64,000 nucleotides of DNA from Acidobacteriota bacterium. Lineage in GTDB: Bacteria > Acidobacteriota > Blastocatellia > Pyrinomonadales > Pyrinomonadaceae. Below, in pieces: positions 3,529-62,606 of this stretch (positions are counted from its first letter, which is position 1; every line of letters begins with the position of its first letter). The notes beneath the pieces are model-generated. The model saw nothing but the letters and a program-made list of their open reading frames with translations, had not been told where the DNA came from and did not search any database. The position numbers were made by a program, and so were the translations under genes. The stretch is from the NCBI GenBank assembly GCA_020199775.1, contig JAIVJZ010000001.1, positions 1-64,000 on the forward strand, in the 5' to 3' direction.

Positions 3529-3610
3529 AGTTTCAGGTTGCGGGTTTCAAGTTTCAGGACTGAAGTTCTCCGGTCTTTAACTTGAAACGTGCAACCTGAA
3601 ACTTGAAACC
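3529..3610. repeat. Hairpin repeat A1 (GTTTCAR-word inverted repeat)
   Basis: The left arm holds GTTTCAGG, GGGTTTCAAGTTTCAGG. The right arm is AACTTGAAAC, then CAACCTGAAACTTGAAAC. Between them lies a loop containing GACTGAAGTTCTCCGGTCTT. It sits between the PilZ stop and the enoyl-CoA hydratase start, both on the minus strand. It is one of seven family A copies in this window. Confidence 0.85.
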
Positions 3611-3617
3611 CTGTGTT

Positions 3618-3986
3618 TTAGGATTCTTCCGGCGGCGCGCCGTGGTCGTCGGCGACCCATGAGACGAAGAGGCGCAGCCAGTTTTCCGTGGGTTCGAGAA
3701 TGTGGACGCCGATGCGCGCCGTGCCGTAGATGGCCGAGGCGATGCGCACGACGCGGGCGGTGACTTCGATAGGCGCGCCGTCCGGGCGGTGCGCGCGCAG
3801 GTAAAGTTGCTCGCCGCGCGTCACCTTCTGGTTAAGATGAAAGAGCGCGCCGGTGGTGGAAATGTCGTCCGTCTCGGTCGGTTCGCTCCACGCCGCGCCG
3901 TCCTCCGCGCGACCGGAGACGACGATGGGCAGGCGCAGCGACATGCGCAACGCGAAACGTCTCTCTTCGTTGGTCGGGGTGGTCAT
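3618..3986 (-). CDS. PilZ domain protein (putative c-di-GMP receptor)
   Basis: The 122-residue protein is a single PilZ domain. It carries an arginine-containing N-terminal segment (ERRFALRMSLRLP) and the D-x-S-x-x-G box in TDDISTTGALF, the two elements that bind cyclic di-GMP in this family. The arginine pattern is looser than the canonical RxxxR, so ligand binding is probable, not certain. The ATG at 3984-3986 has no Shine-Dalgarno sequence because the arm of hairpin D begins only 7 nt upstream. A start further upstream would translate through that hairpin and is less likely. It is sandwiched between two beta-oxidation genes with no obvious functional link. Confidence 0.8.
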   Translation of the reverse strand: MTTPTNEERRFALRMSLRLPIVVSGRAEDGAAWSEPTETDDISTTGALFHLNQKVTRGEQLYLRAHRPDGAPIEVTARVVRIASAIYGTARIGVHILEPTENWLRLFVSWVADDHGAPPEES

Positions 3987-3992
3987 AAAAAT

Positions 3993-4097
3993 AAGCAGTG
4001 AGCAGTAAGCGGTAAGCAGTAGGGCGGTCTCGTCTAACGAGTAGTGATGATCCGGGCAGGTTTCAGACTGCCCACTGCTCACTGCTTACTGCTTACT
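3993..4097. repeat. Hairpin repeat D (AGCAGTA-word inverted repeat)
   Basis: The left arm (3993-4024) is built from AAGCAGT, GAGCAGT, AAGCGGT and AAGCAGT. The right arm (4070-4097) is built from CACTGCT, CACTGCT, TACTGCT and TAC. A 45-nt loop separates them. The right arm includes the last codons and stop of the 3-hydroxybutyryl-CoA dehydrogenase gene. Confidence 0.85.
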
Positions 4098-5059
4098 TCT
4101 TCATCGTCCCAGTTGTAGAAACCTTCGCCGCTTTTTTTGCCGAGCCTTCCGGCGGCGACCATGCGCCGCAGAATTTCCGGCGGGCGGAAGGTTTCGGAGC
4201 CGAGCGTGCGATGCAGGTATTCGGCAATGCTCAAGCGCACGTCGAGGCCGACGAGATCGGTTAGACGGAGCGGCCCCATCGGGTGATTGTAGCCGAGTTG
4301 CATCGCGGTATCTATATCTTTCGCGCTCGCCACCTCCTGCTCCAACATCCGCATCGCTTCCAACCCGAGCGCGACGCCCAGACGGCTCGACGCGAAACCC
4401 GGCACGTCGCGCACCGTGATCGGCTCTTTCTTCATCCTCTGCCCGACGGCGCGCGCCGTCTCGACCGTCTCCTCGCTCGTCTCCCGTCCGACGACGATCT
4501 CGACGAGGCGCATGATGTGGACGGGGTTGAAGAAGTGCATGCCGACGACGCGTTCGGGGCGGCGCGCGGCGCGGGCGATCTCCGTGATCGAGAGCGAAGA
4601 GGTGTTGGTCGCGAAGATGAAATCACGCTCCGCCACGCGCTCGACTTCGCGGATCGTCTCCTGCTTCAACTCCATGCGTTCGGGAACGGCTTCGATGAAG
4701 AGGTCGGCATGAGCGGTCTCGGAGAGGCTCGTCGCGCCACGGATGCGTTGCAGCGCCGTGTCGCGTTCGGCTTCGGTCGTCTTGCCGCGCCGGATGCCTT
4801 TGTCGAGATTGTCTTCGATGGCGCGCAGGCCGCGCACGAGAAACTCCCGCTCCACGTCGCGCAGGACGACGCGGTAGCCGACGAGCGCGGCCACCTGCGC
4901 GATGCCGTGCCCCATCGTGCCCGCGCCGAGCACGGCGACTGTCTCTATGGTCGGACTAGCGATGCCCGTGCTTCCCGGTGAGTCCAAAGTCACTAAAGTT
5001 TCCGGCGCGTCTCCGGGGGGTTGACGACTCGTGGAATTCACCCGTGCCCGCGCCCGCAT
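4079..5059 (-). CDS. hbd: 3-hydroxybutyryl-CoA dehydrogenase
   Basis: The protein has 326 residues from the first ATG, about 40 more than the family norm. It oxidises 3-hydroxyacyl-CoA to 3-ketoacyl-CoA with NAD+. The Rossmann motif VAVLGAGTMGHGIAQ starts at about residue 41. The motifs IEAVPE, ATNTSSLSITEIA and the catalytic histidine in VGMHFFNP (about H175) follow, then the C-terminal dimerisation domain (LTDLVGLDV, GRLGKKSGEGFYNW). The N-terminal extension and a weak ribosome site suggest that translation may begin at a later non-ATG codon. The tail SSKQ is encoded by the arm of hairpin D. It forms a functional pair with the enoyl-CoA hydratase downstream. Confidence 0.9.
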   Translation of the reverse strand: MRARARVNSTSRQPPGDAPETLVTLDSPGSTGIASPTIETVAVLGAGTMGHGIAQVAALVGYRVVLRDVEREFLVRGLRAIEDNLDKGIRRGKTTEAERDTALQRIRGATSLSETAHADLFIEAVPERMELKQETIREVERVAERDFIFATNTSSLSITEIARAARRPERVVGMHFFNPVHIMRLVEIVVGRETSEETVETARAVGQRMKKEPITVRDVPGFASSRLGVALGLEAMRMLEQEVASAKDIDTAMQLGYNHPMGPLRLTDLVGLDVRLSIAEYLHRTLGSETFRPPEILRRMVAAGRLGKKSGEGFYNWDDEEVSSKQ

Positions 5060-5187
5060 GGTCTGATTCGACTACATCCAGCGCAGAGAGTTATACTATA
5101 CGCGCAAGCGAAAAGGCTACACGCGAATGGTTGATTAAGAGGCGCGCGGGCGCGAAAACCTCCCGAAGGAGTGCGACTAACAGCGAG

Positions 5188-6279: not shown

Positions 6280-6335
6280 ACGCCGCACCGCGGCAAACGC
6301 GTGTGGCGGTTGATAGTAACGACTCGCACAACTCG

Positions 6336-6384
6336 ACACGAAGACACGAAGTTAGCCTTACGACTTAACTTCGTGTCTTCGTGT
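6336..6384. repeat. Hairpin repeat E (CACGAAGA-word inverted repeat)
   Basis: A perfect 19-bp stem joins ACACGAAGACACGAAGTTA (6336-6354) to its complement (6366-6384) around an 11-nt loop. The arm is itself a tandem of CACGAAG. It lies between trxB and the beta-lactamase-fold gene, both on the plus strand, and could terminate trxB transcription, but no U-run follows. Confidence 0.85.
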
Positions 6385-6429
6385 TTAATGGACGCCGCGA
6401 CAAAATTCCGCCCCATTCAGGAGCACACC

Positions 6430-7626: not shown

Positions 7627-7691
7627 CGTCGGCGTCCGCGCGGCGTCAAACGCATCAATCAACGCGCCGCCGCGCGGCTGCCGTCAACCGT

Positions 7692-9125: not shown

Positions 9126-9331
9126 TGAGTTAAACCTTCCCGGTCGGAGAATTTATTCAAACCCGATGATGAGATAAATATGTTGCCGGAGTTTCACCGT
9201 CCGGTTGATTTCAGGTTTGCGGGGGCGCGCGGTTGGCAAAGACCAAAAGTAGGCCGCTCGCCATGAGAGGCGCGAGAGTGTGTACGCGTGGGCGCAGCGA
9301 ACTTCGGATCACTCCGCGACCATTCTTTTGC

Positions 9332-9772: not shown

Positions 9773-9825
9773 AACTCGCCTCTCCTCTTGGACGCCAAGA
9801 TTAACACAAAGCGAAGTTGAACTCT

Positions 9826-11268: not shown

Positions 11269-11338
11269 CTCTTTCACTCCCATCTTGCAATCGAACTTGA
11301 AGAAGAACTCACAACCAGCGGCCATTCAAGCCTTAATG

Positions 11339-11401
11339 TTTTCCTTTGCGTCTTTGCGTGAGGTTAAATTTCTCGCAAAGGCGCAAAGACGCAAAGGAAA
11401 A
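11339..11401. repeat. Hairpin repeat F (CGCAAAGA-word inverted repeat)
   Basis: The left arm (11339-11362) is TTTTCCTTTGCGTCTTTGCG plus TGAG. The right arm (11372-11401) contains CGCAAAG three times, one word more than the left. The loop is about 9 nt. It lies between the two M16 genes. Confidence 0.85.
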
Positions 11402-11447
11402 CGAGGACAAGGTTTTGTTTAGTCCCTTAAACTTCGCTCACGGCTAT

Positions 11448-13121: not shown

Positions 13122-13271
13122 CACCACCGCAGACACGGAGAGCGCAGAGAAAGAAAATGATGAAGGAGGGACGCGGAAGGATGAAGTAAAAGCAACCCGC
13201 TTTCAGTTCATCCTTCCGCGTCCCTTCTTCATCGTCCGGCTCTCGGTGCCCCCTCTGTGTTTGCGGTAGTG
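13122..13271. repeat. Nested hairpin repeats G1 (inner) and I (outer)
   Basis: Inner arms: GATGAAGGAGGGACGCGGAA continuing to 13185 (13159-13185), paired with 13207-13233, an almost perfect 27-bp stem. Outer arms: CACCACCGCAGACACGGAGA at 13122-13142, paired imperfectly with 13240-13271 (CTCTGTGTTTGCGGTAGTG at the end). The inner family recurs at 52388-52467. Confidence 0.85.
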
Positions 13272-13360: not shown

Positions 13361-13367
13361 GCGCCTG

Positions 13368-26942: not shown

Positions 26943-26980
26943 TCAATTGTCTCCAATTCTGTTTCTCCGAACAGGCGAAG

Positions 26981-27026
26981 AAAAGAGGCGAGCGGTCGCG
27001 AATCCCGCTCGCCTCTTTTCTTTTTT
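26981..27026 (+). terminator. Rho-independent terminator after the PEP-CTERM gene
   Basis: AAAAGAGGCGAGCGG (26981-26995) pairs perfectly with 27005-27019. A 9-nt loop separates the arms. TTTTCTTTTTTC follows the stem. It lies 39 nt past the stop codon. Confidence 0.92.
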
Positions 27027-34111: not shown

Positions 34112-34600
34112 ATGCCGGACACCGCCGCCGCCACCGCGCCAACCATCTACACCATCGGACACGGACGCCACGCGTGGGCTGACTTTCTCGCGCTCCTGCG
34201 CGAGCACGAGATCGCGCTCGTCTGCGACGTGCGGAGCGCGGCGCGCTCGCGCTGGCCGCAGTTCAACGGGCGCGTGTTGGAGGCGAGCTTGAAAGAGGCG
34301 CGCATCGGTTACGAGTGGCTGCCGGAGTGCGGCGGCAAGGTGGTCGCGCCGCCGCAGGAGTTGGCGCGCGGGCTGGAACGAATTATGGAACTGGCGGCCG
34401 AGGTGTGCGTCGCGTTGATGTGCTCCGAGTCGCACCCGCTGACGCGCCACGCGCGGCCGCGCGCGAACTGCCACCGCGTCGGCCTGCTCTCCACGCCGCT
34501 CCGCGCACGCGGCGCGCGCATCATACACATCCTGCCCGGCGGCGACACCCTCGAAGTTGACGAAGACGGGCTGCCTTCCATCTGGAAGGAAGATACTTAA
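34112..34600 (+). CDS. DUF488-family protein
   Basis: This 162-residue protein begins with IYTIGHGRHAWADFLALLRE, the DUF488 signature, followed by VCDVRSAARSRWPQFNG and LMCSESHPLTRHARPRANCH. Members are small soluble proteins of unknown biochemical role, often linked to DNA or stress loci. A conserved cysteine (CSE) and the following histidine might be catalytic. It is the last gene of a plus-strand cluster, ended by hairpin C1. Confidence 0.88.
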   Translation: MPDTAAATAPTIYTIGHGRHAWADFLALLREHEIALVCDVRSAARSRWPQFNGRVLEASLKEARIGYEWLPECGGKVVAPPQELARGLERIMELAAEVCVALMCSESHPLTRHARPRANCHRVGLLSTPLRARGARIIHILPGGDTLEVDEDGLPSIWKEDT

Positions 34601-34601
34601 A

Positions 34602-34683
34602 GACGTGAATCGTGAATCGTGAATCGTGAATAGAGAAAACCTGTTTCTTTCTATTCACGATTTACGATTCACGATTCACGTCT
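34602..34683. repeat. Hairpin repeat C1 (CGTGAAT-word inverted repeat)
   Basis: Left arm (34602-34634): CGTGAAT four times, then AGA. Right arm (34649-34683): the complementary words. The loop contains GAAAACCTGTTTCTTT. It lies between two convergent genes. Confidence 0.88.
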
Positions 34684-34684
34684 T

Positions 34685-35086
34685 TTATTGTCCGGCCGTG
34701 GCGGCTCGTTCGATCTGGCGGCCGAGCGCTTCGGGGTCGAAGTAGGCGCGGAAGCGGGTGATGCGGTCGCCTTCGATTTCGAGGATGCTGACGCCTTCGT
34801 AGTTGAAGGGCGCGCCGTTTGCGGTCGTACCTTCGGTCGTCCATTCGAGCGCGGCGCGAGTGTCGTTGATGATGCGGTTGCGGAAGGTGGAACGCACCTC
34901 GCCGAAGGTGTCGCGGTACTTCGTCCAGAACTCGCGCGCGCCCGTCTGCCCCGTAAACTTTTCGGGCGCGTTGACGTTGCCCACTTCGCTCTCCTCCGCG
35001 TAGAGCGCGACCATCGCCTCCAGGTCGCGGTTCTCTTCCAACCCTCTCAGTGCTTCGATAAATTGTTCGGCCGTGTCGGCTGCCAT
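34685..35086 (-). CDS. NTF2-like (SnoaL/ketosteroid-isomerase fold) protein
   Basis: This 133-residue protein has the cone-shaped NTF2-like fold: an N-terminal helix EQFIEALRGLEENRDLEAMVALYAE, then FTGQTGAREFWTKYRDTFGEV and a C-terminal strand ITRFRAYFDPEALGR. Family members bind hydrophobic ligands or act as isomerases or hydrolases; the substrate is unknown. The ATG at 35084-35086 has GGGGAGG upstream. A longer in-frame start at 35362 would add 92 basic, low-complexity residues and is rejected. Confidence 0.85.
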   Translation of the reverse strand: MAADTAEQFIEALRGLEENRDLEAMVALYAEESEVGNVNAPEKFTGQTGAREFWTKYRDTFGEVRSTFRNRIINDTRAALEWTTEGTTANGAPFNYEGVSILEIEGDRITRFRAYFDPEALGRQIERAATAGQ

Positions 35087-36501: not shown

Positions 36502-36589
36502 CAGTTTCGGGTTTCAGGTTTCAAGTTTCAGGACTGAGGTGCTCCGGTTCTCCAACTTGAAACCTGCAACCTTCAACTTGAAACTCTTC
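36502..36589. repeat. Hairpin repeat A2
   Basis: Left arm: GTTTCGG, GTTTCAG, GTTTCAA, GTTTCAGG. Right arm: AACTTGAAACCTGCAAC, then TTGAAAC. The loop contains GACTGAGGTGCTCCGGTTCT. It lies between the DoxX stop and the MFS start. Confidence 0.86.
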
Positions 36590-37037: not shown

Positions 37038-37443
37038 CGAGAGAGTCCTTTCCCTATTTCAGACAGGCCGTGTGGTCGTCTTTAACCATACCGGAGGCGC
37101 GGCGCACGACGCACGAGTCGGCCGCAGCACGTCGCCGGTAAGACACTCCCGGCGACGACTCCCTTCAGAGTTCACCGCGCGCGGCCTGCTCCGGTACAAA
37201 CTTGGCTTAAGCTGGTGCAACGCCGACAGTTTTATCATAGCTTTGGTTGCCGCGCACTAGGAGGGGGAAAGGGCAAGGGGTAAAGGGTAAAGGTAAAACC
37301 GCCCGCCGAATCGCCCGCGCCATCATCCGAACATTCCTCCGGCCGCCCCTTTGCCCCCTTCCCCTTTTCCCTTTGCCCCCTTATTTGATCTACACTGCGC
37401 CGCGCAACCCCCGACTAAACACGAAAGCCCGGCCGGTGATTTT
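37038..37443. other. Divergent intergenic region with hairpin B1
   Basis: The 406-nt gap separates the DoxX gene (minus) and an oxidoreductase gene (plus). Hairpin B1 (37262-37382) fills its right part. The left 200 nt should carry the DoxX promoter; I see no clear -35/-10 pair. No RNA gene is recognisable. Confidence 0.6.
37262..37382. repeat. Hairpin repeat B1 (GGGTAAA/GGGGAAA-word inverted repeat)
   Basis: Left arm (37262-37299): AGGGGGAAAGGGCAAGG, GGTAAAGGGTAAAGG. Right arm (37347-37382): CCCCTTTGCCCCCTTCC, CCTTTTCCCTTTGCCCCC. A loop of about 50 nt separates them. It lies between divergent genes. Confidence 0.82.
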
Positions 37444-38289: not shown

Positions 38290-40701
38290 ATGATTCGGAT
38301 CGAAAGAGCGGCGGTGTTGGGTGCGGGCACGATGGGCGCGCAGATCGCGGCGCACCTGGCGAACGCCGGCATACCCGTTCTCCTCTTGGACATCGCGCCG
38401 CGCGAACTCACGCCGGATGAAGAGGCCAAAGGTTTCTCGCTTGAAGCGCGCGCCGTGCGCAATCGCATCGCGCAGGCCGGACTCGACGCGGCGAAGCGTG
38501 CGAAGCCCGCCGCATTCTTCACGGCCGACACGTCCGCGCTCGTCGCGGTCGGGAATTTTGCAGACGACTTGGCGCGTCTCAAAGACTGCGATCTGGTCGT
38601 CGAAGCGGTCGTCGAGAATTTGGAGATCAAGCGGAAACTCTACGAGGGCGTCGAGCGACACAGGCGCGCGGGTTCCATCGTCGCGTCGAACACGAGCGGC
38701 ATCCCGATTCGCGCCATCGCCGAAGGCTTCTCGGAAGACTTCCGCGCGCACTTTCTCGGCATACATTTCTTCAACCCCCCGCGCTACCTGCACCTGTGCG
38801 AACTGATCCCGACCGAATGGACGCGCCCGGAAGTAGCCTGCTCCGTCTTCGGCTTCCTCGATCAGAGACTCGGCAAGGGCGTCGTCCTCGCGAAGGATCG
38901 CCCGAACTTCATCGCCAACCGCATCGGCACTTACGGCGCGCTCGTCTCGATCAAGACGATGCTCGAAGACGGTTACACCATCGAAGAAGTTGACCGGATG
39001 ACGGGGCAGGCCGTCGGCCGCCCGAAGTCGGCCACCTTCCGCACGTTCGACATCGTCGGGCTCGACGTGTTCGCGCACGTCGCGCGGAATCTCTACGAGG
39101 CCGTGCCCGAAGACGAGGAGCGCGAGGTCTTCGTCGCGCCCGAATTTTTGCAAGGGATGATCGGGCGCGGGATTCTGGGCAACAAGACGAAGGGTGGCTT
39201 CTACCGCAAGCAAAAAGGTGAAGGCGAGAAACAGGAAATCTGGACGCTCGACCACGCCTCGCTCGAATACCGCCCCGCGCAAAAAGTGAAACTGCCCGCG
39301 CTGGAGATGGCGAAGAACGTCGAAGACGTGGGCGAGCGCATCAAGGCTCTCGTCTGGTCGAAGGATCGCGTGGGCGCGTTTTTGTGGAAGACCATCACGC
39401 GCACTTTGCGCTACGCGGCGAACCGCATCCCGGAGATCGCGAACAACGTCGTGGACGTGGATCGCGCGATGCGCTGGGGCTTCAGCTGGGAGTTGGGCGT
39501 GTTCGAGACGTGGGACGCTATCGGCGTGGAGAAGTCGGTCGCGCGCATGCGAGAAGAGGGCGAGAAGATTCCCCTGAACGTCGAACGCATGCTGCACGCG
39601 GGCGCGCAGAGCTTTTACAAGACGGAGGGGAGCCAGCGTTTTTACTTCGACTTCGTCACGCTCGCATACCAGCCGGTCAACGAGCAGGCGGGCGTCCTTA
39701 TCCTGAAGTCGGTCAAGGAGCGCACGGGCGTCGTCAAGCGAAACGCGGGCGCGTCTCTGATCGACATCGGGGACGGCGTGGCGTGTCTGGAATTCCACTC
39801 GAAGATGAACGCCATCGGCGGCGACACGATCCAGATGATCAAGGGGTCGCTCGCCGAAGTCGAGCGAAACTTCGTCGGCCTCGTCGTCGGCAATCAGGCG
39901 CAGTATTTCTCGGTCGGCGCGAACCTGATGCTCATCCTGCTGGAAGCGCAGGAGGAGAACTGGGAAGACATTGATTTGATGGTGCGCGAGTTTCAACGCG
40001 CGACGATGAGTTTGCGTTATTCGCCGAAGCCGGTCGTCGTCGCGCCGTTCGGGCTCGTCCCCGGCGGCGGCTGCGAGGTGGCGATTCACGGCGACCGCAT
40101 GCGCGCGTCGGCCGAGTTGTACATCGGGCTGGTGGAGGCGGGCGTCGGCGTCATCCCGGCGGGCGGCGGGACGAAGGAGATGCTCGTGCGCGCGCTCGAT
40201 TCAATCCCGCGCGGCATGGACGACGCCGACCCCTTCCCGTTCGTCAAACGCGCCTTCGAGACGATTGCGCTGGCGAAGGTCGCCACGTCGGCCGGAGAGG
40301 CGCGGCAGTTGGGCTTCCTGCGCGACGAGGATTCGATCTCGATGAATCAGGATCGCCTCATCGCCGACGCCAAGCAGGAAGTGCTGGCGTTAGCCAAAGG
40401 CGGCTACACCGAACCGCAGCCGCGCACGGACATCCTCGCGCTCGGCCTGCCCGCCCTCGCCACTTTGAAACTCGGCATCCACCAGATGAAGCGCGGCGGG
40501 TTCATCTCCGAATACGACGCGCTCATCGGCGAACGGCTCGCGCGCATCCTGACGGGCGGTGATCTCAACCACCCGACGCGCGTCAGCGAACAATATTTGC
40601 TCGACCTCGAACGCGAGGCGTTCCTTTCGCTCTGCGGCCAGCGCAAGACGCAGGAGCGCATGGCGGCGATGCTCAAGACCGGCAAGCCGCTGAGGAATTA
40701 G
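38290..40701 (+). CDS. fadN: 3-hydroxyacyl-CoA dehydrogenase/enoyl-CoA hydratase (FadN type)
   Basis: This 803-residue bifunctional enzyme begins with the NAD-binding 3-hydroxyacyl-CoA dehydrogenase (AAVLGAGTMGAQIAAHLA, about residues 7-24; the C-terminal dehydrogenase domain follows). A crotonase-fold hydratase domain is at the C-terminal end, with PFGLVPGGGCEVAIHGD and AGVGVIPAGGGTKEMLV. The dehydrogenase-first order and length match Bacillus subtilis FadN, not the E. coli FadB order. It catalyses two steps of fatty-acid beta-oxidation in the cytoplasm. AAAGAGG lies 12-13 nt before the ATG. It heads a plus-strand run ending with fadA and fadE, behind a FadR-type operator. Confidence 0.93.
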   Translation: MIRIERAAVLGAGTMGAQIAAHLANAGIPVLLLDIAPRELTPDEEAKGFSLEARAVRNRIAQAGLDAAKRAKPAAFFTADTSALVAVGNFADDLARLKDCDLVVEAVVENLEIKRKLYEGVERHRRAGSIVASNTSGIPIRAIAEGFSEDFRAHFLGIHFFNPPRYLHLCELIPTEWTRPEVACSVFGFLDQRLGKGVVLAKDRPNFIANRIGTYGALVSIKTMLEDGYTIEEVDRMTGQAVGRPKSATFRTFDIVGLDVFAHVARNLYEAVPEDEEREVFVAPEFLQGMIGRGILGNKTKGGFYRKQKGEGEKQEIWTLDHASLEYRPAQKVKLPALEMAKNVEDVGERIKALVWSKDRVGAFLWKTITRTLRYAANRIPEIANNVVDVDRAMRWGFSWELGVFETWDAIGVEKSVARMREEGEKIPLNVERMLHAGAQSFYKTEGSQRFYFDFVTLAYQPVNEQAGVLILKSVKERTGVVKRNAGASLIDIGDGVACLEFHSKMNAIGGDTIQMIKGSLAEVERNFVGLVVGNQAQYFSVGANLMLILLEAQEENWEDIDLMVREFQRATMSLRYSPKPVVVAPFGLVPGGGCEVAIHGDRMRASAELYIGLVEAGVGVIPAGGGTKEMLVRALDSIPRGMDDADPFPFVKRAFETIALAKVATSAGEARQLGFLRDEDSISMNQDRLIADAKQEVLALAKGGYTEPQPRTDILALGLPALATLKLGIHQMKRGGFISEYDALIGERLARILTGGDLNHPTRVSEQYLLDLEREAFLSLCGQRKTQERMAAMLKTGKPLRN

Positions 40702-40820
40702 TTTCGAGTTTCGAGTTTCGAGTTTCAGGACTGAAAGTAGTTTCAAGTTTCAGGTTTCAAGTTTCAGGACTGAGCTTTGAAGTCTGTAATTTGAAACTTG
40801 AAACCTGAAACCTGAAACTG
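40702..40820. repeat. Hairpin repeat A3 (double left arm)
   Basis: Two left arms are present: GAGTTTCGAGTTTCGAG, GTTTCAGGACTGAAAG, and then GTTTCAAGTTTCAGGTTTCA with AGTTTCAGGACTGAG. The right arm reads TTGAAACTTGAAACC, TGAAACCTGAAAC. It seems that a second copy of the left half was added. It lies between fadN and ybaK; the ybaK start has no Shine-Dalgarno sequence because the arm ends 4 nt before it. Confidence 0.86.
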
Positions 40821-41819: not shown

Positions 41820-43004
41820 ATGAGAGACGCAGTGATCGTATCGGCGGTGAGGACGGCGGTGGGCAAAGCGCCGAAGGGGACTTTGCGCGACACGCGGCCG
41901 GATGAGATGGGCGCGGCCGTGATCGAAGAGGCGTTGAAGCGCGCCGAAGGTGTCGAGTTGAACGAAGTCGAAGACGTGATCATGGGCTGCGCCATGCCGG
42001 AGGCGGAGCAGGGCATGAACGTGGCGCGGGCGGCGGCGATCCGGGCGGGGCTGCCCGTCGAAACGTCTGCGATGACGATCAATCGCTTCTGCTCGTCGGG
42101 GCTGCAATCAATCGCGATTGCGGCCGACCGCATCAGGACGGGCGCGGCCGACGTGATCGTCGCCGGGGGCTTGGAGACGATGTCGCTCATCCCGATGGGC
42201 GGGCACACCATCAGGCCGAACCCCTACCTCGTCGAGCACTACCCCGACTTTTATCTGAACATGGGACTCGCCACCGAGAACGTCGCGCGCAAGTACGAGG
42301 TGTCGCGCGAGGAGCAGGACGAGTTTTCGTTCCGTTCGCACAGCCGCGCCTCGGCGGCGCAGGACGCGGGCAAGTTCGACGACGAGATCGTGCCGCTCAA
42401 GGTCGTGTTCGAAGAGTTGGACGAGCGCGGGCGCAAACAGCGGCGCGAGACGACGTTCGAGCGCGACGAGGGCGTCAGGCGCGACACGTCGGCGGAAAGC
42501 CTCGCCAAACTGCGACCGGCGTTTCACGCGCAGGGGACGATCACGGCGGGCAACGCATCGCAGATGTCGGACGGCGCGGCGGCGGCGGTCGTCATGTCGG
42601 CCGCGCGCGCGCGTGCTCTGGGCTTGCGCCCGTTGGCGCGCTTCGTGGCCTACGCCACCGCCGGATGCCCGCCCGAAGAGATGGGCATCGGGCCGGTCTA
42701 CGCGATCCCGAAGGTGTTGAAGATCGCGGGGCTGACGCTAGGCCAGATCGACGTGATCGAACTCAACGAAGCCTTCGCCGCGCAATCGCTGGCCGTGATT
42801 CGCACGCTCGCGCTCGACCCGGAACGCGTGAACGTCAACGGCGGCGCAATCGCGCTCGGCCACCCGCTCGGCTGCACGGGCGCGAAGTTGACCGCGACCG
42901 CCCTGCGCGAACTCGAACGCAGGGGCGGACGCTACGCGATGGTGACGATGTGCGTCGGCGGCGGCATGGGCGCGGCCGGAATTTTCGAGCGGCTCGAAAA
43001 TTAG
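41820..43004 (+). CDS. fadA: Acetyl-CoA acyltransferase (thiolase)
   Basis: This 394-residue thiolase cleaves 3-ketoacyl-CoA to acetyl-CoA and a shortened acyl-CoA. The acyl-accepting cysteine is C91 in [15 protein letters not shown]. The C-terminal catalytic pair is [16 protein letters not shown] (histidine) and [15 protein letters not shown] (cysteine). It is the third enzyme of the beta-oxidation run. Hairpin A4 follows, then fadE. Confidence 0.95.
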
Positions 43005-43086
43005 TTTCAGGTTTCGAGTTTCAGGTTTCAGGACTGAGGTTCTGAGGCTGTCAGACTTGAAACTTGAAACCTGAAACCTGAAACTG
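43003..43086. repeat. Hairpin repeat A4
   Basis: Left arm: AGTTTCAGGTTTCGAGTTTC, AGGTTTCAGG. Right arm: GACTTGAAACTTGAAACCTG, AAACCTGAAAC. The loop contains GACTGAGGTTCTGAGGCTGTC. It begins at the fadA stop and ends 25 nt before the fadE start. Confidence 0.86.
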
Positions 43087-44889: not shown

Positions 44890-44895
44890 TCGAAA

Positions 44896-44997
44896 GGGTA
44901 AGGGGTAAAGGGGGAAAGGGAAAGGGAGAAAAGCGGAAGCAATCCGATCGCTCAATCGCTTAACCTTTCCCCTTTAACCTTTCCCCCTTACCCTTTA
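44896..44997. repeat. Hairpin repeat B2
   Basis: Left arm (44896-44930): GGGTAAGGGGTAAAGGGGGA, AAGGGAAAGGG. Right arm (44963-44997): CCTTTCCCCTTTAACC, TTTCCCCCTTACCCTTT. The loop contains CGGAAGCAATCCGATCG. It lies between fadE and the MBL hydrolase gene. Confidence 0.83.
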
Positions 44998-46042: not shown

Positions 46043-46090
46043 GAAACGGCCGCCGCCCATCACCTTGAAGTGATGAGCGGCGGCCGTTTC
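46043..46090. terminator. Bidirectional terminator between convergent genes
   Basis: GAAACGGCCGCCGCCCATCAC (46043-46063) pairs almost perfectly with GTGATGAGCGGCGGCCGTTTC (46070-46090) around a 6-nt loop. One mismatch is present (CC-A versus A). It lies between the MBL gene and the lamin-tail gene, both ending towards it. Confidence 0.85.
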
Positions 46091-50305: not shown

Positions 50306-50350
50306 AAGACCGCAGCCCCGTCGAGCGTTCGACGGGGCTGCGGTCTTTTA
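50306..50350. terminator. Strong terminator between convergent genes
   Basis: AAGACCGCAGCCCCGTCGA (50306-50324) pairs perfectly with 50329-50347 around a GCGT loop. TTTT follows on the plus strand, and the arm begins with AAAG on the other side. It ends both the PDZ gene and the minus-strand gene at 50382. Confidence 0.93.
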
Positions 50351-52268: not shown

Positions 52269-52387
52269 GCGATTAACAACTACTTGTGTGTGAATTTTCC
52301 GCGCCGGGAAGGAACTCCGAAAAACGCCGCTCGGCAACACTTCTTAAAGATGCCGCACCGGGCGCGCCGGATGCCAGCAGGAGAAAT

Positions 52388-52467
52388 GATGAAGTAGGAA
52401 CGCGGAACGATGAATGAAAGACAAACGCTTTGTTTTAACGTTCATCGTTCCGCGTTCCTACTTCATC
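52388..52467. repeat. Hairpin repeat G2 (GATGAAGTAGGAACGCGGAA word)
   Basis: Left arm 52388-52414 begins GATGAAGTAGGAACGCGGAA. Right arm 52441-52467 is its complement, a perfect 27-bp stem with a 26-nt loop. The right arm also encodes the last residues of the DUF2062 protein (NDEVGTRNDE). The same family occurs at 13159-13233. Confidence 0.88.
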
Positions 52468-52932
52468 GTTTGCCCTCATCCTTTGCCGTGCGCGAAGCAG
52501 CTTTAAGGTAACAGGATAGGCGGCGAGGGAACAAACGACGGAGAGAGACATGCCGCCGACGGAGAAGGGCACGACGATGTCCCACAGGTGCGTGAACAGT
52601 TGTCGCCAGTAAGAGGCGGTTAAGAGGTGCGGCTCCTGCAACAGTCTCCAGCCTTCTTCGGGCAGGCTCAGGGGGCGTCCCATGACGAGCGCGCCGACGG
52701 CGTAAGAGGCGGCGATGATGGGGACGAGCGTGAGAAACGGGTTGTTGACGAACGTCCCCGTGTAGATCGCGATCTTGTTGAAGCGGAACAGGAAGGCGAC
52801 GAGGGTCGCCATGATGGTGTGGAGTCCGAGGAAGGGCGAGAAGGCGATGAAGATGCCCACGGAAAAAGCGAGCGCCGTCCGCTCCGGCGGGTCGTCAACC
52901 GCGAGCAGACGGCGAAAAGCAGCGCGAAACAT
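52435..52932 (-). CDS. DUF2062-family membrane protein
   Basis: This 165-residue protein has three or four hydrophobic helices and the DUF2062 signature: ALAFSVGIFIAFSPFLGLHT, followed by FLFRFNKIAIYTGTFVNNPF. The function is unknown; relatives are often near glycosyltransferases. The C-terminal tail is encoded by hairpin G2 and has no similarity to the family, so the original end of the gene has probably been replaced. The start lacks a Shine-Dalgarno sequence, with hairpin A5 beginning 8 nt upstream. Confidence 0.9.
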   Translation of the reverse strand: MFRAAFRRLLAVDDPPERTALAFSVGIFIAFSPFLGLHTIMATLVAFLFRFNKIAIYTGTFVNNPFLTLVPIIAASYAVGALVMGRPLSLPEEGWRLLQEPHLLTASYWRQLFTHLWDIVVPFSVGGMSLSVVCSLAAYPVTLKLLRARQRMRANDEVGTRNDER

Positions 52933-52940
52933 AGATAAAA

Positions 52941-53027
52941 AGGTTTCAAGTTTCAGGTTTCAGGTTTCAAGACTGAATGTTCTCCGGTCTTGAACTTGAA
53001 ACCTGAAACCTGAAACTTGAAACTTGC
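52941..53027. repeat. Hairpin repeat A5
   Basis: Left arm: AGGTTTCAAGTTTCAGGTTT, CAGGTTTCAAG. Right arm: AACTTGAAACCTGAAACCTG, AAACTTGAAAC. The loop contains GACTGAATGTTCTCCGGTCTT. It lies between the STAS gene stop and the DUF2062 start. Confidence 0.87.
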
Positions 53028-53036
53028 TTTCACCTG

Positions 53037-54063: not shown

Positions 54064-54178
54064 CGGGGAAAGGGGAAGGGGGAAAGGGTAAAGGTGAAAG
54101 CGGGAGGGCGAATCGTTGAGTTATGGGTTCGAGTATCTTCTTTACCTTTCCCCCTTCCCCTTTCCCCCTTCGCCCTCC
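54064..54178. repeat. Hairpin repeat B3
   Basis: Left arm (54064-54099): CGGGGAAAGGGGAAGGGGGA, AAGGGTAAAGGTGAAAG. Right arm (54141-54178): TTTACCTTTCCCCCTTCCCC, TTTCCCCCTTCGCCCTCC. The loop contains GGGCGAATCGTTGAG. It lies between the divergent RsbW-like and aroA genes, 20 nt ahead of the aroA start. Confidence 0.83.
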
Positions 54179-54196
54179 TTCTTTTAAGATGGCCGC

Positions 54197-56100: not shown

Positions 56101-58087
56101 ACAGGACGCGGACGCGAAAGCATTGAAGGTCGCACGCACATTGAAGAACGCCGAAAACTGGAAGCACCTCGCGCGCTGGCACGGCGAGGGTTACTACGAA
56201 CTGCACACCGAGGACACGGGCACGACGCCGGTGCGCCTCTTTTTAACCAAACAATTGCTCGACGACGCCGAAGACATTCTCTATCGCCAGATCGTCAACG
56301 CCACACGCTTCCCCGGCGTGCGCATGGTCGTCATCACGCCCGACACGCACTACGGCTACGGAGTGCCCGTCGGCTGCGTGCTCATCACCGACGCCGACGC
56401 GGGCGCGGTCGCCATGGGGCCGGTCGGCTACGATATTGGTTGCTTTACGTCTGACACACTCATTCCTCTGGCCGATGGTCGCGCCTACCCGATTGGCGAA
56501 CTGGCCGGGCGCGGCGAGGAAATTTTCGTGTACGCAATCTCTCAAGAACAGAAGATCGTCGTCGCCAAAGCAACAGCTAAGAAGACCCGGACAAACGCGC
56601 CGCTGGTGAAAGTGACGATCGACAACGGCCGGGAAATTTTCTGCACGCCCGACCACGAATTTATGCTGCGCGACGGGACTTACCGGCAGGCGCAAGAGCT
56701 AACTCCGCGCACTTCGCTGATGCCATTCGACGTAAAGGTTGAACGAGAGGACTACGTTGCTTTGGGTCATCCTGCTGCTTGGAACTCGCAAAGCGCGTTC
56801 AGTTATAACCACAAAGTCGTCTCGGTCGAACGCCTGAAGCAAACGGCGGATGTGTTCTGCCTGTCCGTTCCTGATTACGGCAACTTCGCGCTCGACGCGG
56901 GCGTGTTCGTGCATAACTGCGGGATGATGTCGGCGCGTTCGGAAGTCGAGGCCGGGCAAGCGACGCCGGAGAAGCGTCTGGAGTTTAACCGCGCGGTGAT
57001 GGAGCGCGTGAACATGGGCGCGGGCGGCAAGAGCGTGCGCTTGGGCGAGTTGGGGAAAGGTGAGTTTAATAATCTGGTGCGCGGCGGCGCGGAGTATTAT
57101 GTCGAGCGGTACGGGGCGACGTTTGATCGCAGCCGCGCGGAGCGGCATCGCATCCCGGTGGACGACGATTGGCAGATTCCGTGGGGCGGGAAGGGCAGGC
57201 CGGAGCGCGGGCTGAACCAGTTGGGCAGTCTCGGCGGCGGCAACCATTTCATCGAACTGCAACGCTCCGAGCAGACGGGCACGATCTTCGTGCAGGTGCA
57301 CACGGGCAGCCGCGGCTTCGGGCATGGCCTCGCGACCAACTATTTCGAGTTGGCGCGCGAGGAGCGACCCGACCAGATGACGGACATCGACCTCGGCTAC
57401 TTCATGCCCGACTCGCGCCATTACCGCGACTACCTGAACGCCGTCGCGGCGGGCGGCAACTACGCGATCTTGAATCGCCTGATCATCTTCGAGCAGGTGG
57501 CCGACGCCTTCCGCGAAGTGTTCGGACGAGAGCTTGAGTTGATCTACGAGATCAGCCACAACCTCGTGCAGCGAGAGTGGCATCCTGAGTTCGGCGAGGT
57601 GTGGGTGCATCGCAAGGGCGCGACGCGCGCGTTCCCCGCCGGGCACCCCGCGCTGAAAGGGACACACTGGGAAGAGACGGGGCATCCAGTCCTCATCCCC
57701 GGCTCGAACAAGGATTGGAGTTACATCCTGCAACCGCTGGCGGGTGCGGTGAACAGCGGCTACTCGGTCAACCACGGCGCGGGGCGGCGTCTGTCGCGCG
57801 GCGAGGCGACGCGCACCTTGTCGCAACGCGCGATTGACGACGAATACAAGGCGGCGGGGATTTTAGTCAACATCAACGGGCGCGTGCCTTTGGACGAGGC
57901 CGCGCCCGCCTACAAGTCTTCGCAGGCAGTGATCGAGGCGGTGGTCGGCGCGGGGCTGGCGCGCGTCGAGCATCAACTCTGGCCGCTCGCCTCGCTCAAA
58001 GGCGCGGACGAGCGCAAGGGCAAGCGACGTGGTAAGGGGGGCAAGGGCGACGCGAAGAAGGGACGGAAGACGAAGGAACATTATTGA
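56093..58087 (+). CDS. rtcB: RNA-splicing ligase RtcB interrupted by a mini-intein
   Basis: The precursor has 664 residues. Residues 117-275 are an intein, leaving a 505-residue mature enzyme close to the RtcB norm. RtcB joins RNA 2',3'-cyclic phosphate and 5'-hydroxyl ends using GTP and Mn2+. Host motifs are TPDTHYGYGVPVGCVL, GPVGYDIG, then (after the intein) CGMMSARSE, GSLGGGNHFIEL, HTGSRGFGHGLA, PVLIPGSNKDWSYIL and the guanylylated histidine in NHGAGRRLSRGEA. The intein splits GYDIG from CGMM at the metal-binding cysteine. I chose ATG 56093, after GAGGGGAAGAG, over 56060. A basic tail (RKGKRRGKGGKGDAKKGRK) ends the protein. It overlaps aroK; no archease or rtcA lies nearby. Confidence 0.95.
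   Translation: MAKQDADAKALKVARTLKNAENWKHLARWHGEGYYELHTEDTGTTPVRLFLTKQLLDDAEDILYRQIVNATRFPGVRMVVITPDTHYGYGVPVGCVLITDADAGAVAMGPVGYDIGCFTSDTLIPLADGRAYPIGELAGRGEEIFVYAISQEQKIVVAKATAKKTRTNAPLVKVTIDNGREIFCTPDHEFMLRDGTYRQAQELTPRTSLMPFDVKVEREDYVALGHPAAWNSQSAFSYNHKVVSVERLKQTADVFCLSVPDYGNFALDAGVFVHNCGMMSARSEVEAGQATPEKRLEFNRAVMERVNMGAGGKSVRLGELGKGEFNNLVRGGAEYYVERYGATFDRSRAERHRIPVDDDWQIPWGGKGRPERGLNQLGSLGGGNHFIELQRSEQTGTIFVQVHTGSRGFGHGLATNYFELAREERPDQMTDIDLGYFMPDSRHYRDYLNAVAAGGNYAILNRLIIFEQVADAFREVFGRELELIYEISHNLVQREWHPEFGEVWVHRKGATRAFPAGHPALKGTHWEETGHPVLIPGSNKDWSYILQPLAGAVNSGYSVNHGAGRRLSRGEATRTLSQRAIDDEYKAAGILVNINGRVPLDEAAPAYKSSQAVIEAVVGAGLARVEHQLWPLASLKGADERKGKRRGKGGKGDAKKGRKTKEHY
56441..56917 (+). other. 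Mini-intein (159 residues) inside rtcB
   Basis: The intein runs from Cys1 (CFTSDTLIPLADG, block A) to HN (VFVHN, block G), followed by the extein Cys. Block B is REIFCTPDHEFMLRDG, with the TPDH histidine. Block F is VFCLSVPDYGNFALDAG. These are the HINT splicing elements. There is no LAGLIDADG or HNH homing endonuclease domain. Insertion is before the RtcB cysteine that coordinates manganese, so unspliced protein should be inactive. Codon use looks more AT-rich than in the flanking exteins. Confidence 0.95.
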
Positions 58088-58126
58088 TTCGTGAGTTCGA
58101 TATAAGCGAGAGCGGAGTTATAAATT

Positions 58127-58204
58127 AAGCCCCGTCAGGGGCGGAAGAGTTATCGCCCACGGCGTGAACCGTGGGCGATAACTCTTCCGCCCCTGACGGG
58201 GTTT
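58127..58204. repeat. Hairpin repeat H (36-bp perfect-type stem)
   Basis: Left arm from 58127 (AAGCCCCGTCAGGGGCGGAA onward to 58162) pairs with 58169-58204, one G-U pair, with loop CGTGAA. The arm itself includes CCCCGTCAGGGG. It lies between convergent rtcB and topoisomerase genes, and the topoisomerase stop begins at its last bases. Confidence 0.9.
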
Positions 58205-59276
58205 ACGCACCCAGCAGTTTCAAGAGGGCGCGCTCTTCCGGCAGGTATTCCGGTTGCTGGCGTCCGATGCGGCGTTCGCGGCGGGGGCGAAATTCGTCGA
58301 GCGTGACGCCGCGGCAGTAGCTTTCGAGCACGGCCGGGTGGATGTAGCTGGAACGGCAGACGGCCGGAGTGTTGCCGAGGTGTTCGGCTACGGCGCGGAC
58401 GGCGTGCAGGATGTTGCGCTTCGCCTGTTTGTCGTTTTCGGGCTTGCCGAGTTCGGCGAGTTCGACGGCGCACAGGAGCGTGCCGCCCCACGTGCGAAAA
58501 TCTTTGGCGGAGTATTCGGGCGCGGTCGCCGCCTTGATGTACTCGTTCACGTCGCGCGGCTTGATGCAGACGGGGCGTTTGTTCTCGGCGTCCCAGTATT
58601 GGAAGAGACGCTTGCCGCGCAGGGATTGGATGTCGCGCATGAGCGTCGCCAACTCTTCGTCGACGAGGATGCGCCGGTGTTTGATGTGGTGCTTGCCGAC
58701 GAAGGAGAAGACGAGGCGGCCGCCGCGCTTGATCTCCAGATGGCGGTTGCGCAGCGTCGTGATGCCGTAGGTGCGGTAACGCATGACGCTCTCTTCGGAG
58801 CCGACGCGGAAGTAGAGGTCGTTGATCAGACGGACGACGACGGCGAGCACGCGTGCGCGCGGCAGTCCTTCGAGCGCGATGTCTTGGTTGGTGCGGCGGC
58901 GTAAGTGTTTGAGTTGTTCGCCGAAGCGTTCGATCTTCGCGAACTTGCGCCGCGCCTGCCGGGCGGCGAAGGCCGGATGGTAGATGCGCTGCACGCGCCC
59001 CGAAGCGTCGAGGCCGATGGCTTGCAACTGGCCGCGCGCCGCCGGGCAGATGCGCACCTCCGTCCACGCCGGGGGAATTACGAGCGACTTGATGCGTTCG
59101 AGCGCGGCCTCGTCCGTGAGCGGTTTGCCCGCGCAGTCTTCGTAGCGAAAGCCGCTGCGCTTCGCGCCGCGCCGCCGCCACCAGCGACAGCGCGCGCCGC
59201 GCGTCACACTCTCGACCGCGCTCCTGGCCGTTTTGTTGTCAATCAGAACTTGTGCGCTCGACATCACGGAAGCCAC
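58203..59276 (-). CDS. DNA topoisomerase IB
   Basis: This 357-residue enzyme relaxes supercoils via a 3'-phosphotyrosine. The catalytic tyrosine is Y311 in CRSSYIHPAVLESY; the arginine in SAKDFRTWGGTLL (R261) and the lysine-bearing GKHHIKHRRILVDEEL belong to the active site. The N-terminal part contains IPPAWTEVRICPAARGQLQA, typical of bacterial and poxviral type IB enzymes. The stop codon touches hairpin H. The start at 59276 has a second ATG 12 nt later; either could be used. Confidence 0.93.
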   Translation of the reverse strand: MASVMSSAQVLIDNKTARSAVESVTRGARCRWWRRRGAKRSGFRYEDCAGKPLTDEAALERIKSLVIPPAWTEVRICPAARGQLQAIGLDASGRVQRIYHPAFAARQARRKFAKIERFGEQLKHLRRRTNQDIALEGLPRARVLAVVVRLINDLYFRVGSEESVMRYRTYGITTLRNRHLEIKRGGRLVFSFVGKHHIKHRRILVDEELATLMRDIQSLRGKRLFQYWDAENKRPVCIKPRDVNEYIKAATAPEYSAKDFRTWGGTLLCAVELAELGKPENDKQAKRNILHAVRAVAEHLGNTPAVCRSSYIHPAVLESYCRGVTLDEFRPRRERRIGRQQPEYLPEERALLKLLGA

Positions 59277-59356
59277 CCCCTCGTCCCACGGAAGTTCGAG
59301 CCGACATGTTGCGGGCGAGCGGTCACGAAAATATAACGGCGGGCGAAATACGGAAA

Positions 59357-59449
59357 GGTTTCAAGTTTCAGGTTTCAGGTTTCAAGTCTGAACGTGCTTC
59401 GTTCTTTAACCTGAAACCTGAAACCTTTAGATTTGAAACTTGAAACCTG
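59357..59449. repeat. Hairpin repeat A6
   Basis: Left arm: AGGTTTCAAGTTTCAGGTTT, CAGGTTTCAAG. Right arm: AACCTGAAACCTGAAACC, then TTGAAACTTGAAACC. The loop contains GTCTGAACGTGCTTCGTTCTT. It lies between the topoisomerase start and the zinc-ribbon protein stop. Confidence 0.85.
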
Positions 59450-59455
59450 CGAATT

Positions 59456-60220: not shown

Positions 60221-60328
60221 ATATCTGCAACGTAACGTTCTATTTTATGCTTCGCCTGAACACGAATCATCGCACAACCTTAAGGATAGTGACAAGCGAC
60301 GAGAGAAGAACGCGAATCGTAAGAGGAA

Positions 60329-60386
60329 CGTGAACCGTGAATCGTGAATAGAAAGAACTGAGTTTTCTCTATTCATGATTCACGGT
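60329..60386. repeat. Hairpin repeat C2
   Basis: Left arm (60329-60352): CGTGAACCGTGAATCGTGAA, TAGA. Right arm (60368-60386): TCTATTCATGATTCACGG. It is shorter and more degraded than C1. The loop reads AAGAACTGAGTTTTC, which matches the C1 loop read on the other strand. Confidence 0.82.
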
Positions 60387-60390
60387 TTTT

Positions 60391-61386: not shown

Positions 61387-61392
61387 GTGTCC

Positions 61393-61471
61393 ATCGTAAA
61401 TCGTGAATCGTAAATCGTGAATAGAAAGACCCCCGTTTTATCTATTCACGATTTACGATTCACGATTTACG
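61393..61471. repeat. Hairpin repeat C3
   Basis: Left arm (61393-61425): ATCGTAAATCGTGAATCGT, AAATCGTGAATAGA. Right arm (61441-61471): TCTATTCACGATTTACGATT, CACGATTTACGA. The loop contains AAGACCCCCGTTTTA. It lies between divergent genes, and its right arm ends 20 nt before the next start. Confidence 0.87.
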
Positions 61472-61490
61472 AGTTACTGTTTTGCCCCGC

Positions 61491-62492
61491 ATGACTCAAC
61501 AGGCCGAGACATTCGTCGTCGTCAACTACAACGCCGCGCGTGCGCGCGCCGCGTGGGCGCAGGTCGGGCACGCGCTCAGGGAGAGCGGCGTGCGCTTCGA
61601 CGCACACGAGGCGAAGGAGGCGGGCGACGCGCAAAGCTCCGCGCGCGCGGCTCTGCGTGCGGGCTACCGGACAATCGCCGTCGTCGGCGGCGACGGGACG
61701 CTCGGCGAAGTGGTGACGGGATTTTTTGAACCGGACGGCGATGGCCTCAACGCGGCCGAGACCACGACGAGAACTCCGGCGTGCATCAACGCCGAGGCAG
61801 CACTGGCCGTCCTGCCCGCGGGCACGGGCAACGATTTCGCGCGCGGTCTCGCAGGCGAACGCGCCTCGCTCGAACGCTGGCTCACGCGTTTGATCAAACA
61901 CAGCCGCCGCGACGCGAGCGCGACGACCACGCGCGCCGTCGATGTGCTGCGCGGGACAATCGGCGACGCCGCCCGCCCGTTCTTCTGTCTCAACGCCGCC
62001 ACGCTCGGCATCGGCGCGGAGGTGGCGGGGCGCGTCGCGGCGCAGGGGAGAGAGGTGCGGCGACTACCGGGCGAGGCGCGTTTCGCGCTCGCGGCCGTGC
62101 AAGCCCTCGCGCGCTGGCGTGCGCGCCGCATCTCCGTGCGGGTGGGTGATGCGGCGGCATTCGAGTGCGTGACGAATCTGGTGGCGGTCGTCAACAGCGC
62201 TTACGCGGGCGGCGGCATGATGTTCTCGCCCGAAGCGCGCACCGACGACGGCCTGCTCGACGTAGTCACCGCCTGCCGTCTGACGCGCGCTTCGCTCGTC
62301 CGCGAGATGACACGCATCCATAGCGGCGGCCACGTCAAGAACCCGCGCGTGCTTATCTCGCGCGGCGAACGCGTCCGCATCGAACACCTGACACCGGCCG
62401 ATGCGCTCGCGGTCGAAGCCGACGGCGACGTGCGCGGCCACACGCCGCTTGAGTTCCGCGTCCTCAAGGGTGCGCTCAGGGTGGTGGTTTGA
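61491..62492 (+). CDS. Diacylglycerol/lipid kinase family protein
   Basis: This 333-residue protein has the DAGK catalytic domain: VVGGDGTLGEVVTGF with the GGDGT nucleotide loop (residues 66-70), and LPAGTGNDFARGLAG. The C-terminal half has the family beta-sandwich with LNAATLGIGAEVAGRV, AYAGGGMMFSPEARTDDGLL and VDVVTACRLTR-like text (LDVVTACRLTRASL). It probably phosphorylates a lipid such as diacylglycerol. I chose ATG 61491 rather than TTG 61482. It is convergent with rpiB, with hairpin A7 between them. Confidence 0.92.
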   Translation: MTQQAETFVVVNYNAARARAAWAQVGHALRESGVRFDAHEAKEAGDAQSSARAALRAGYRTIAVVGGDGTLGEVVTGFFEPDGDGLNAAETTTRTPACINAEAALAVLPAGTGNDFARGLAGERASLERWLTRLIKHSRRDASATTTRAVDVLRGTIGDAARPFFCLNAATLGIGAEVAGRVAAQGREVRRLPGEARFALAAVQALARWRARRISVRVGDAAAFECVTNLVAVVNSAYAGGGMMFSPEARTDDGLLDVVTACRLTRASLVREMTRIHSGGHVKNPRVLISRGERVRIEHLTPADALAVEADGDVRGHTPLEFRVLKGALRVVV

Positions 62493-62494
62493 AA

Positions 62495-62606
62495 GAGTTT
62501 CAAGTTTCAAGTTTCAGGTTTCAAGTTAAAGAAGGAGCAACCTTCAGACTTGAAACTTGAAACCTGAAACTTGAAACCTTAACTTGAAACTTGAAACTTG
62601 AAACCT
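62495..62606. repeat. Hairpin repeat A7 (loop reversed relative to A1-A6)
   Basis: Left arm: AGTTTCAAGTTTCAAGTTTC, AGGTTTCAAG. Right arm: two blocks, GACTTGAAACTTGAAACCTG, AAACTTGAAACC, then TTAACTTGAAACTTGAAAC, TTGAAACC. Read on the minus strand the loop gives GTCTGAAGGTTGCTCCTTC, like the A6 loop. The right arm was extended by a second word block. It lies between convergent genes. Confidence 0.86.

Follow-up and report, generated by a model that had tools for sequence, protein, structure and literature searches.

The window considered here comprises the first 64,000 nucleotides of contig JAIVJZ010000001.1 (assembly GCA_020199775.1) from an Acidobacteriota bacterium of the family Pyrinomonadaceae. 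Between its genes are found hairpins, most of which have arms composed of short words repeated in tandem (Table 1). The source genome (G000) is a 5.9-Mb draft in 77 contigs, 92% complete, where the window is contig 71. For the acyl-CoA dehydrogenase of the window, the closest named matches were in Blastocatellia and Pyrinomonadaceae MAGs (77% and 65-68% identity), in a search from which entries very close to the window may be missing. Hairpins of the same build occupy corresponding intergenic slots in related genomes, at many of which the words are unrelated, and in two pairs of families one hairpin is found inside another.

Periodic hairpins between genes

The hairpin finder (arms of at least 16 nt, complementarity of at least 80%, loops of at most 90 nt) detected 22 hairpins in the window, of which 20 have 18 or more paired bases. 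Dinucleotide shuffles of the same DNA, five in all, yielded 2, 0, 0, 1 and 1 hairpins (0, 0, 0, 1 and 0 with at least 18 pairs), so that the claim of about twenty hairpins in the first-pass annotation is borne out. A strict periodicity score (z≥4.5) was passed by 10 of the 22 and by none in the shuffles. By eye, family words were assigned to 17 of the 21 hairpins with at least 16 pairs, i.e., family A in seven cases, C in three, G and B in two each, and D, E and F in one each; an additional B array pair (37264-37379) was detected by the tandem-repeat scan only, beyond the finder set. The idea that every hairpin is made of tandem words of about 7 nt was only partly upheld: tandem words are lacking in H and in the hairpins at 26978, 46043 and 50306, and the words of E and F are 8 nt long, as compared to 7 nt in the other families.

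A sample of 1.254 Mb from G000 (60 stretches plus the window) contained 209 hairpins vs one in a single shuffle, i.e., the excess over shuffled DNA is large at both scales. Periodic arms were found in 142 of the 209, with a period of 7 (n = 130), 8 (n = 11) or 6 (n = 1). The families extend beyond the window: the pattern GTTTCRRGTTTCRRGTTTC occurs 313 times in the genome, its reversed control not at all, and the families are also present in relatives. This control pattern (CTTTGRR, three times) is itself common in three other genomes, G007, G011 and G012 (up to 32 + 13 times in G011), where it is apparently a further heptad family. As in the REPIN/RAYT system, the elements are high-copy extragenic palindromic repeats that fall into families; as in STRR-type repeats, they are tandem heptanucleotides that are mostly intergenic and present in many copies (130/142 with period 7; 3/154 inside called open reading frames).

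A typical element has about four heptamers in tandem, then some 25 nt of loop, and then the heptamers in reverse complement. Arm length was taken from word counts, because the ungapped-stem measure was too noisy, and the commonest arm in families A (GTTTCAR), S (RGTGACR) and C (CGTRAAT) has four words. Four-word left and right arms were found in 23/27 and 19/27 cases for A and in 23/27 and 17/27 for C in G000; in the congener G002 the numbers are 21/26 and 23/26 for S and 8/11 and 9/11 for A, with a less regular C (5/12 and 9/12). When the families are pooled, in an estimate that overruns slightly, the rounded word number is four in 212 of 452 arms, five in 105 and three in 85. Family F, with its 8-nt words, has three words per arm. 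A single design across unrelated words, as originally proposed, is supported, and it proves stricter than that proposal had it.

Nor is the loop arbitrary: that of A is conserved, asymmetric and found in both orientations. Because of this loop and the near-fixed word number, the members of each family appear to be copies by descent, and the design is common to the families. Copying of one arm from the other would lead to matched word order between the arms, and this candidate was rejected: the match was 0.75 in A vs 0.77 in shuffles, i.e., no excess, and 0.84 in C vs 0.76, a slight excess only.

Gene positions were obtained with our own simple gene caller (984 genes in 1.25 Mb). Among 154 periodic hairpins (z≥3.5), 112 lie between tandem genes, 27 between convergent and 7 between divergent genes, 5 at an edge and 3 within called open reading frames, to be compared with 470 tandem, 107 convergent and 97 divergent spaces in a background of 674 intergenic spaces of at least 60 nt. 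Divergent spaces are depleted of periodic hairpins (p = 9e-4), which contradicts the earlier view that all three settings are used alike. Between tandem genes, the hairpin is located at a median of 7 nt past the stop codon and 25 nt ahead of the next start. A position could be assigned to 50 of the 55 non-periodic hairpins, and 28 of those 50 are convergent (p = 8e-10 vs all spaces); they look like terminators, unlike the periodic ones.

Change of family at inherited slots

Identity is 92-94% between the two congeners G001 and G002 and 84-88% between either of them and G000, so the two are sisters. At slots 3529, 36503 and 52943, A in G000 corresponds to S in both sisters, and at 36503 the borders of the A and S hairpins agree to the base. 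Slot 59354 carries A in G000 and G001 and B in G002, slot 61394 carries C in G000 and G002 and GGTRAAT words in G001, and at slot 58126 the non-tandem H of G000 corresponds to GGTRAAT words in G001. The family is retained in both sisters at 40739, 43003, 44893 and 62497, and both are without a hairpin at 11338 (F) and 13159 (G).

A broader comparison covered 165 orthologous gene pairs of G000 and G002, from 1.25 Mb and 0.84 Mb, respectively. Periodic hairpins are present in neither genome at 120 pairs, in both at 36, opposite a degenerate relative at 8 and on one side only at 1; the 36 pairs divide into 15 with the same family, 19 with different families and 2 that are ambiguous. When all hairpins with at least 16 pairs are included, 105 pairs are empty, 15 same, 20 different and 3 ambiguous, while 13 are one-sided with shared words and 9 one-sided without; by eye, three one-sided or shared cases have another family on the opposite side. 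In this wider tally, family change at occupied slots (20/51) is far more common than one-sided hairpins without shared words (9/114; p = 3e-6). A stricter, word-based tally gave 114 pairs with none, 14 shared, 5 shared with an extra family, 15 different and 17 one-sided; in its control, 0/165 shuffled segments passed. At C11:282887, a non-tandem, terminator-like hairpin of G000 is interrupted or replaced in G002 (C67) by a hairpin of GGATGAA-type heptads, a case from which ordinary hairpins may be targets as well.

The slot between thiolase and acyl-CoA dehydrogenase genes was traced through the family in 32 loci (the best 30 of 99 family genomes, G001 and a second G003 contig), of which L253 (G003:C31) was excluded as identical to L252 (G042:C22), leaving 31. 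These two have equal match coordinates and identical intergenic sequence, and one of them is probably a contaminating contig in one bin; the same suspicion falls on L150 and L151, which come from that G003 contig. The slot holds GTTTCAR in G000, G001, G002 and G017, AGCAGTR in G052, TTAGCTG in G042 and G003, AGTGCTC in G012, and 8- or 9-nt words in G005, G059 and G103; the words of G052 and G103 were read by eye, unflagged by the finder. Non-tandem hairpins are found in G004, G006 and G105, which belong to other genera; they are long palindromes of the GTAGGGGCGG and GGAGTGCGGTGACTTG types. Slots without a hairpin have a spacer of at most 59 nt (9/31) or of 86-87 nt (2/31), and 6/31 have inserts of 376-1048 nt. 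At several loci the stop codon is followed by the hairpin and then by a segment (G)CGACTGAAAGGAG that precedes the next start.

Nesting, probable succession and alternative explanations

In G002, where the word patterns identify 41 S and 12 C elements, an S array on the right strand is found in the flank of 11 of the 12 C hairpins and in both flanks of 8, as compared to 1 in the wrong-strand control. S flanks were seen in 0/11 A and in 3/49 other periodic hairpins (p = 1.4e-9). In G000, a single S element is left as against 27 C elements, and at seven orthologous slots S in G002 corresponds to C in G000. At C20:141664 and C20:172472, G002 has S around C and G000 has C alone. At C11:85613, G002 again has S around C; in G000, C is accompanied by a right S arm that has one word vs four, 21 nt less, i.e., unit-wise length change appears here in decay. 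At slot 60333, C lies inside S in both G001 and G002, and in G000 the flanks of C retain S words. Another family pair behaves similarly, with G in G000 and G around P in G002 at C20:116637 and C20:173041. From nesting it follows that the outer family was at the slot first.

We attribute a probability of roughly 0.55 to the following interpretation: hairpins of one build reside in inherited slots after stop codons, and the families are likely replaced when a newcomer hairpin enters the loop of the resident, whose outer arms are then lost so that the newcomer keeps the slot. As far as can be read from the DNA itself, this is based on the common build, the positions, unrelated words at one slot, C in S and P in G, orthologs that are nested in one genome and single in another, and one arm that is three words shorter. 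The same order of events would then apply at slots without a visible nested state, and loop entry followed by outer-arm loss would be a main route of replacement, nesting being the usual one. Such a route would account for the finding that occupied slots change their family more often than empty slots acquire a hairpin. Loops might be favored because they expose single-stranded DNA. For the copying itself, we would tentatively prefer short-homology gene conversion or template switching, by which a new loop could be carried into an old pair of arms, because the arms common to S and S-with-C offer homology on both sides of the loop.

Several observations weigh against this interpretation. In G000, a recognizable S flank remains in only 2/27 C hairpins (A, 0/27; others, 2/128). 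The A-for-S (three slots) and A-for-B (two slots) exchanges were seen without a nested intermediate, and at slot 36503 the words changed with borders kept to the base. In G002, the S-around-C junction types recur and are asymmetric, with gttagaaaagac.. on one side and gagaagaaagt.. on the other; S-with-C may therefore be copied as a unit, and the 11 S-flanked C hairpins do not count as 11 separate landings. When outer stems were searched for in general, an excess appeared only at lengths of at least 10-12 nt, in few cases (at least 12 nt: 3/154 in G000, 4/81 in G002), for which reason nesting is claimed for S/C and G/P only. Vacant slots gain or lose hairpins too (9 one-sided pairs, or 17 by words), and the 9 without shared words consist of 5 in G000 and 4 in G002. 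Furthermore, the genomes compared are incomplete drafts.

An alternative that we regard as unlikely is that the hairpins are functional 3'-end or operon-internal structures (in termination, processing or mRNA protection), where selection keeps any stem-loop, the word is free and the families drift. The location just past the stop codon, the avoidance of divergent spaces and the occupancy conserved between congeners are consistent with such a role, but 105-120 of the 165 gene pairs, depending on definition, are without any hairpin, and the signatures expected at the RNA level were not seen. In the 112 tandem cases, mismatched pairs on the transcript strand include 60 G.U vs 63 A.C, i.e., there is no G.U preference, and the 9 nt after the stem contain on average 3.57 T vs 3.51 A in the 9 nt before it; structured RNA under selection and rho-independent termination were accordingly not supported for the periodic hairpins. 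The A loop is oriented sense in 6 cases, antisense in 12 and unclear in 5, with 3 not between co-directional genes, which gives no clear sense bias. In the window, only a tRNA scored above the Rfam gathering threshold, with no match to a hairpin. The hairpins behave as DNA-level, strand-symmetric elements.

Less probable still is that mobile hairpins insert independently into short spacers and old ones are deleted, the slots being hit again because there are few free places. Many spacers of relatives are indeed short and vacant, as in the thiolase slot, and the F and G hairpins at 11338 and 13159 are one-sided. However, independent insertion does not agree with the predominance of family change over one-sided hairpins, nor with the location of C in G002, i.e., in S loops rather than in free spacers.

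Mobilization in trans of REPIN-like elements by a Y1 transposase (RAYT) appears very improbable. The hairpins are intergenic and form families, and up to 15 Y1_Tnp matches occur in other genomes of the family. Yet no Y1 match was found in the drafts of G001 (83% complete) and G002 (89% complete), both rich in hairpins, and the two matches in G000 have internal stop codons, one in the first and five in the second; the 3.3-kb loci around them hold no hairpin of at least 12 pairs. A Y1 transposase with repeats beside it was thus not found in these drafts, and the search gave this candidate no support.

Hardly credible is the remaining alternative, favored in the first-pass annotation, that slippage on hairpin stems generates the tandem arms in place, separately at every site: a period of 7 prevails in all families taken together, polymerase slippage has been put forward for heptamers (PMC4692102) and one arm is three whole words longer in one species than in another, but the conserved, asymmetric A loop, the near-fixed word number and the dozens of copies per word point to descent.

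Intergenic heptamer repeats of bacteria have been described for a long time, with no mechanism given. For succession through nesting, the orthologous slots, nested intermediates and shortened outer arm together outline a testable sequence of events by which repeats may spread and replace each other. It would explain why the intergenic regions of close relatives can be alike in structure and unrelated in sequence; hairpins themselves would then be where a class of mobile DNA lives, and the nearly constant number of four words per arm would point to a process that measures arm length.

Table 1. Hairpins of the window and the state of the same slots in related genomes
Position	Strand	Hairpin	Slot in other genomes; surroundings
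3529..3609	.	A (GTTTCAR words)	S words in G001 and G002
3993..4101	.	D (AGCAGTR)	D words in G001 and G002 likewise
6336..6384	.	E, 8-nt word CACGAAGA	
11338..11402	.	F, 8-nt CGCAAAGR words	no hairpin in G001 and G002
13159..13233	.	G, GAAnnnn heptads, weakly periodic	no hairpin in G001 and G002
26978..27022	.	non-tandem, terminator-like	convergent genes around
34599..34685	.	C, CGTRAAT, 4 words	
36503..36578	.	A	S in G001 and G002, identical borders
37264..37379	.	B arrays (GGGTAAA ... GCCCCTTT), long loop between	B words in G001 and G002 too
40700..40819	.	A, with additional upstream A array	A in G001 and G002
43003..43085	.	A, start = thiolase stop codon	slot traced across family
44893..44996	.	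B	B in G001 and G002
46043..46090	.	non-tandem, terminator-like	convergent genes around
50306..50347	.	non-tandem, terminator-like	convergent genes around
52384..52471	.	G	degenerate G in G001 and G002
52943..53023	.	A, possible S remnant on right	S in G001 and G002
54065..54176	.	B	G001: B; G002: 0.9-kb insert in its place
58126..58205	.	H, non-tandem 37-nt stem	convergent genes; G001: GGTRAAT hairpin
59354..59445	.	A	G001: A; G002: B
60333..60387	.	C, flanks with S words	G001 and G002: C nested in S
61394..61472	.	C, perfect 32-bp stem	G001: GGTRAAT words; G002: C
62497..62604	.	A, with additional right A array	A in G001 and G002

Related systems and other observations

In cyanobacteria, tandem heptamer repeats are known as STRRs. 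The Nostoc SDR elements, reportedly described by Elhai et al. in 2008, are said to form families of 21-27 nt that share a fold, often lie within heptamer repeats and are nested in themselves; these would likewise be tiny nested elements associated with heptamers, but smaller than the hairpins discussed here.

The closest published parallels are the heptamer STRRs and the P6b stem of Nostoc trnL. GGGAATC of Xanthomonas and GGGGAYT of Nostoc are intergenic tandem heptamers close to the 5' neighboring open reading frame, with 70-75 inverted pairs per genome in Xanthomonas, mostly between the same genes in two species and variable in length and sequence (PMC4692102). The location at the same gene pairs and the inverted pairs are shared with the present elements; that account emphasizes one main word per genome and G-quadruplexes, in contrast to the many word families, four-word arms and conserved loops seen here. 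TAACTGA of Beggiatoaceae is an intergenic heptamer direct repeat (PMC4679880), and Geobacter metallireducens carries intergenic elements of four tandem heptanucleotides in 49 places (PMC2700814). These resemble our elements in their heptamers and, for Geobacter, in the copy number, but in these papers they appear as direct repeats, for which regulatory roles are suggested, rather than as hairpins replacing each other (PMC4679880, PMC2700814).

Replacement of one repeat class by another at a fixed stem is described for P6b of the Nostoc trnL (UAA) intron, a stem of complementary short repeats whose whole class was replaced repeatedly, in one direction, with side stem-loop insertions and with seven-nucleotide repeats mentioned for Class II (PMC4476775). 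That case is a single RNA-intron stem with two classes, whereas the present slots are numerous and intergenic, with a dozen words among them and with nested intermediates. REPINs, like our elements, are intergenic hairpins with several families per genome and are inferred to be mobile together with RAYTs (PMC3116915); differences are that no Y1 transposase was found in the two hairpin-rich congeners and that tandem-heptamer arms are absent from the REPIN description used (PMC3116915). REP sequences are hairpin repeats that serve as preferred landing sites of insertion sequences (PMC1525189), a similar use of the hairpin as target, except that the newcomers there are full insertion sequences and here other hairpins. 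Double-hairpin elements of fungal mitochondria are also tiny, inferred to be mobile and optional between close species (PMC7218506); they reside in organelle DNA, and the description used does not include tandem-heptamer arms. Intergenic heptamers, repeat-class replacement at the P6b stem, REPINs and insertion into REPs are already known (PMC4692102, PMC4679880, PMC2700814, PMC4476775, PMC3116915, PMC1525189). In the open-licence literature we found no report of many heptamer hairpin families in succession at orthologous slots via nested states.

Outside the family, 57 hairpins with at least 18 pairs were found in 80 named loci, which total 1.48 Mb and come mainly from Acidobacteriota and Bacteroidota, with some from Bacillota. 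Of these hairpins, 15, spread over 10 loci, are periodic, with a period of 7 (n = 11), 8 (n = 3) or 12 (n = 1), and the loci include Hymenobacter, Chitinophaga, Sediminibacterium, Spirosoma and Pedobacter. The density of periodic hairpins is 0.010 per kb in these loci vs 0.113 in the G000 sample. Family A had no match to a plasmid collection in one search and a single partial match (48% coverage, E = 4e-3) in another. A wider and quite tentative picture would be that of a genome-wide ecology of hairpins without an enzyme of their own, where competing families of four times seven nucleotides spread chiefly via the loops of other hairpins, arms and loops serve as their niche, the slots are long inherited and their occupants succeed one another, with hairpins of like build in other Acidobacteriota and in Bacteroidota.

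Two genes of the window deserve mention apart from the hairpins. The RtcB RNA ligase gene at 56060-58087 (+) has a match to an intein-splicing domain (PF14890) at residues 135-286 of 675, and a 1283-residue open reading frame at 27109-30960 (-) combines AAA/ClpB-type domain matches with a PCRF release-factor domain close to its C-terminus.

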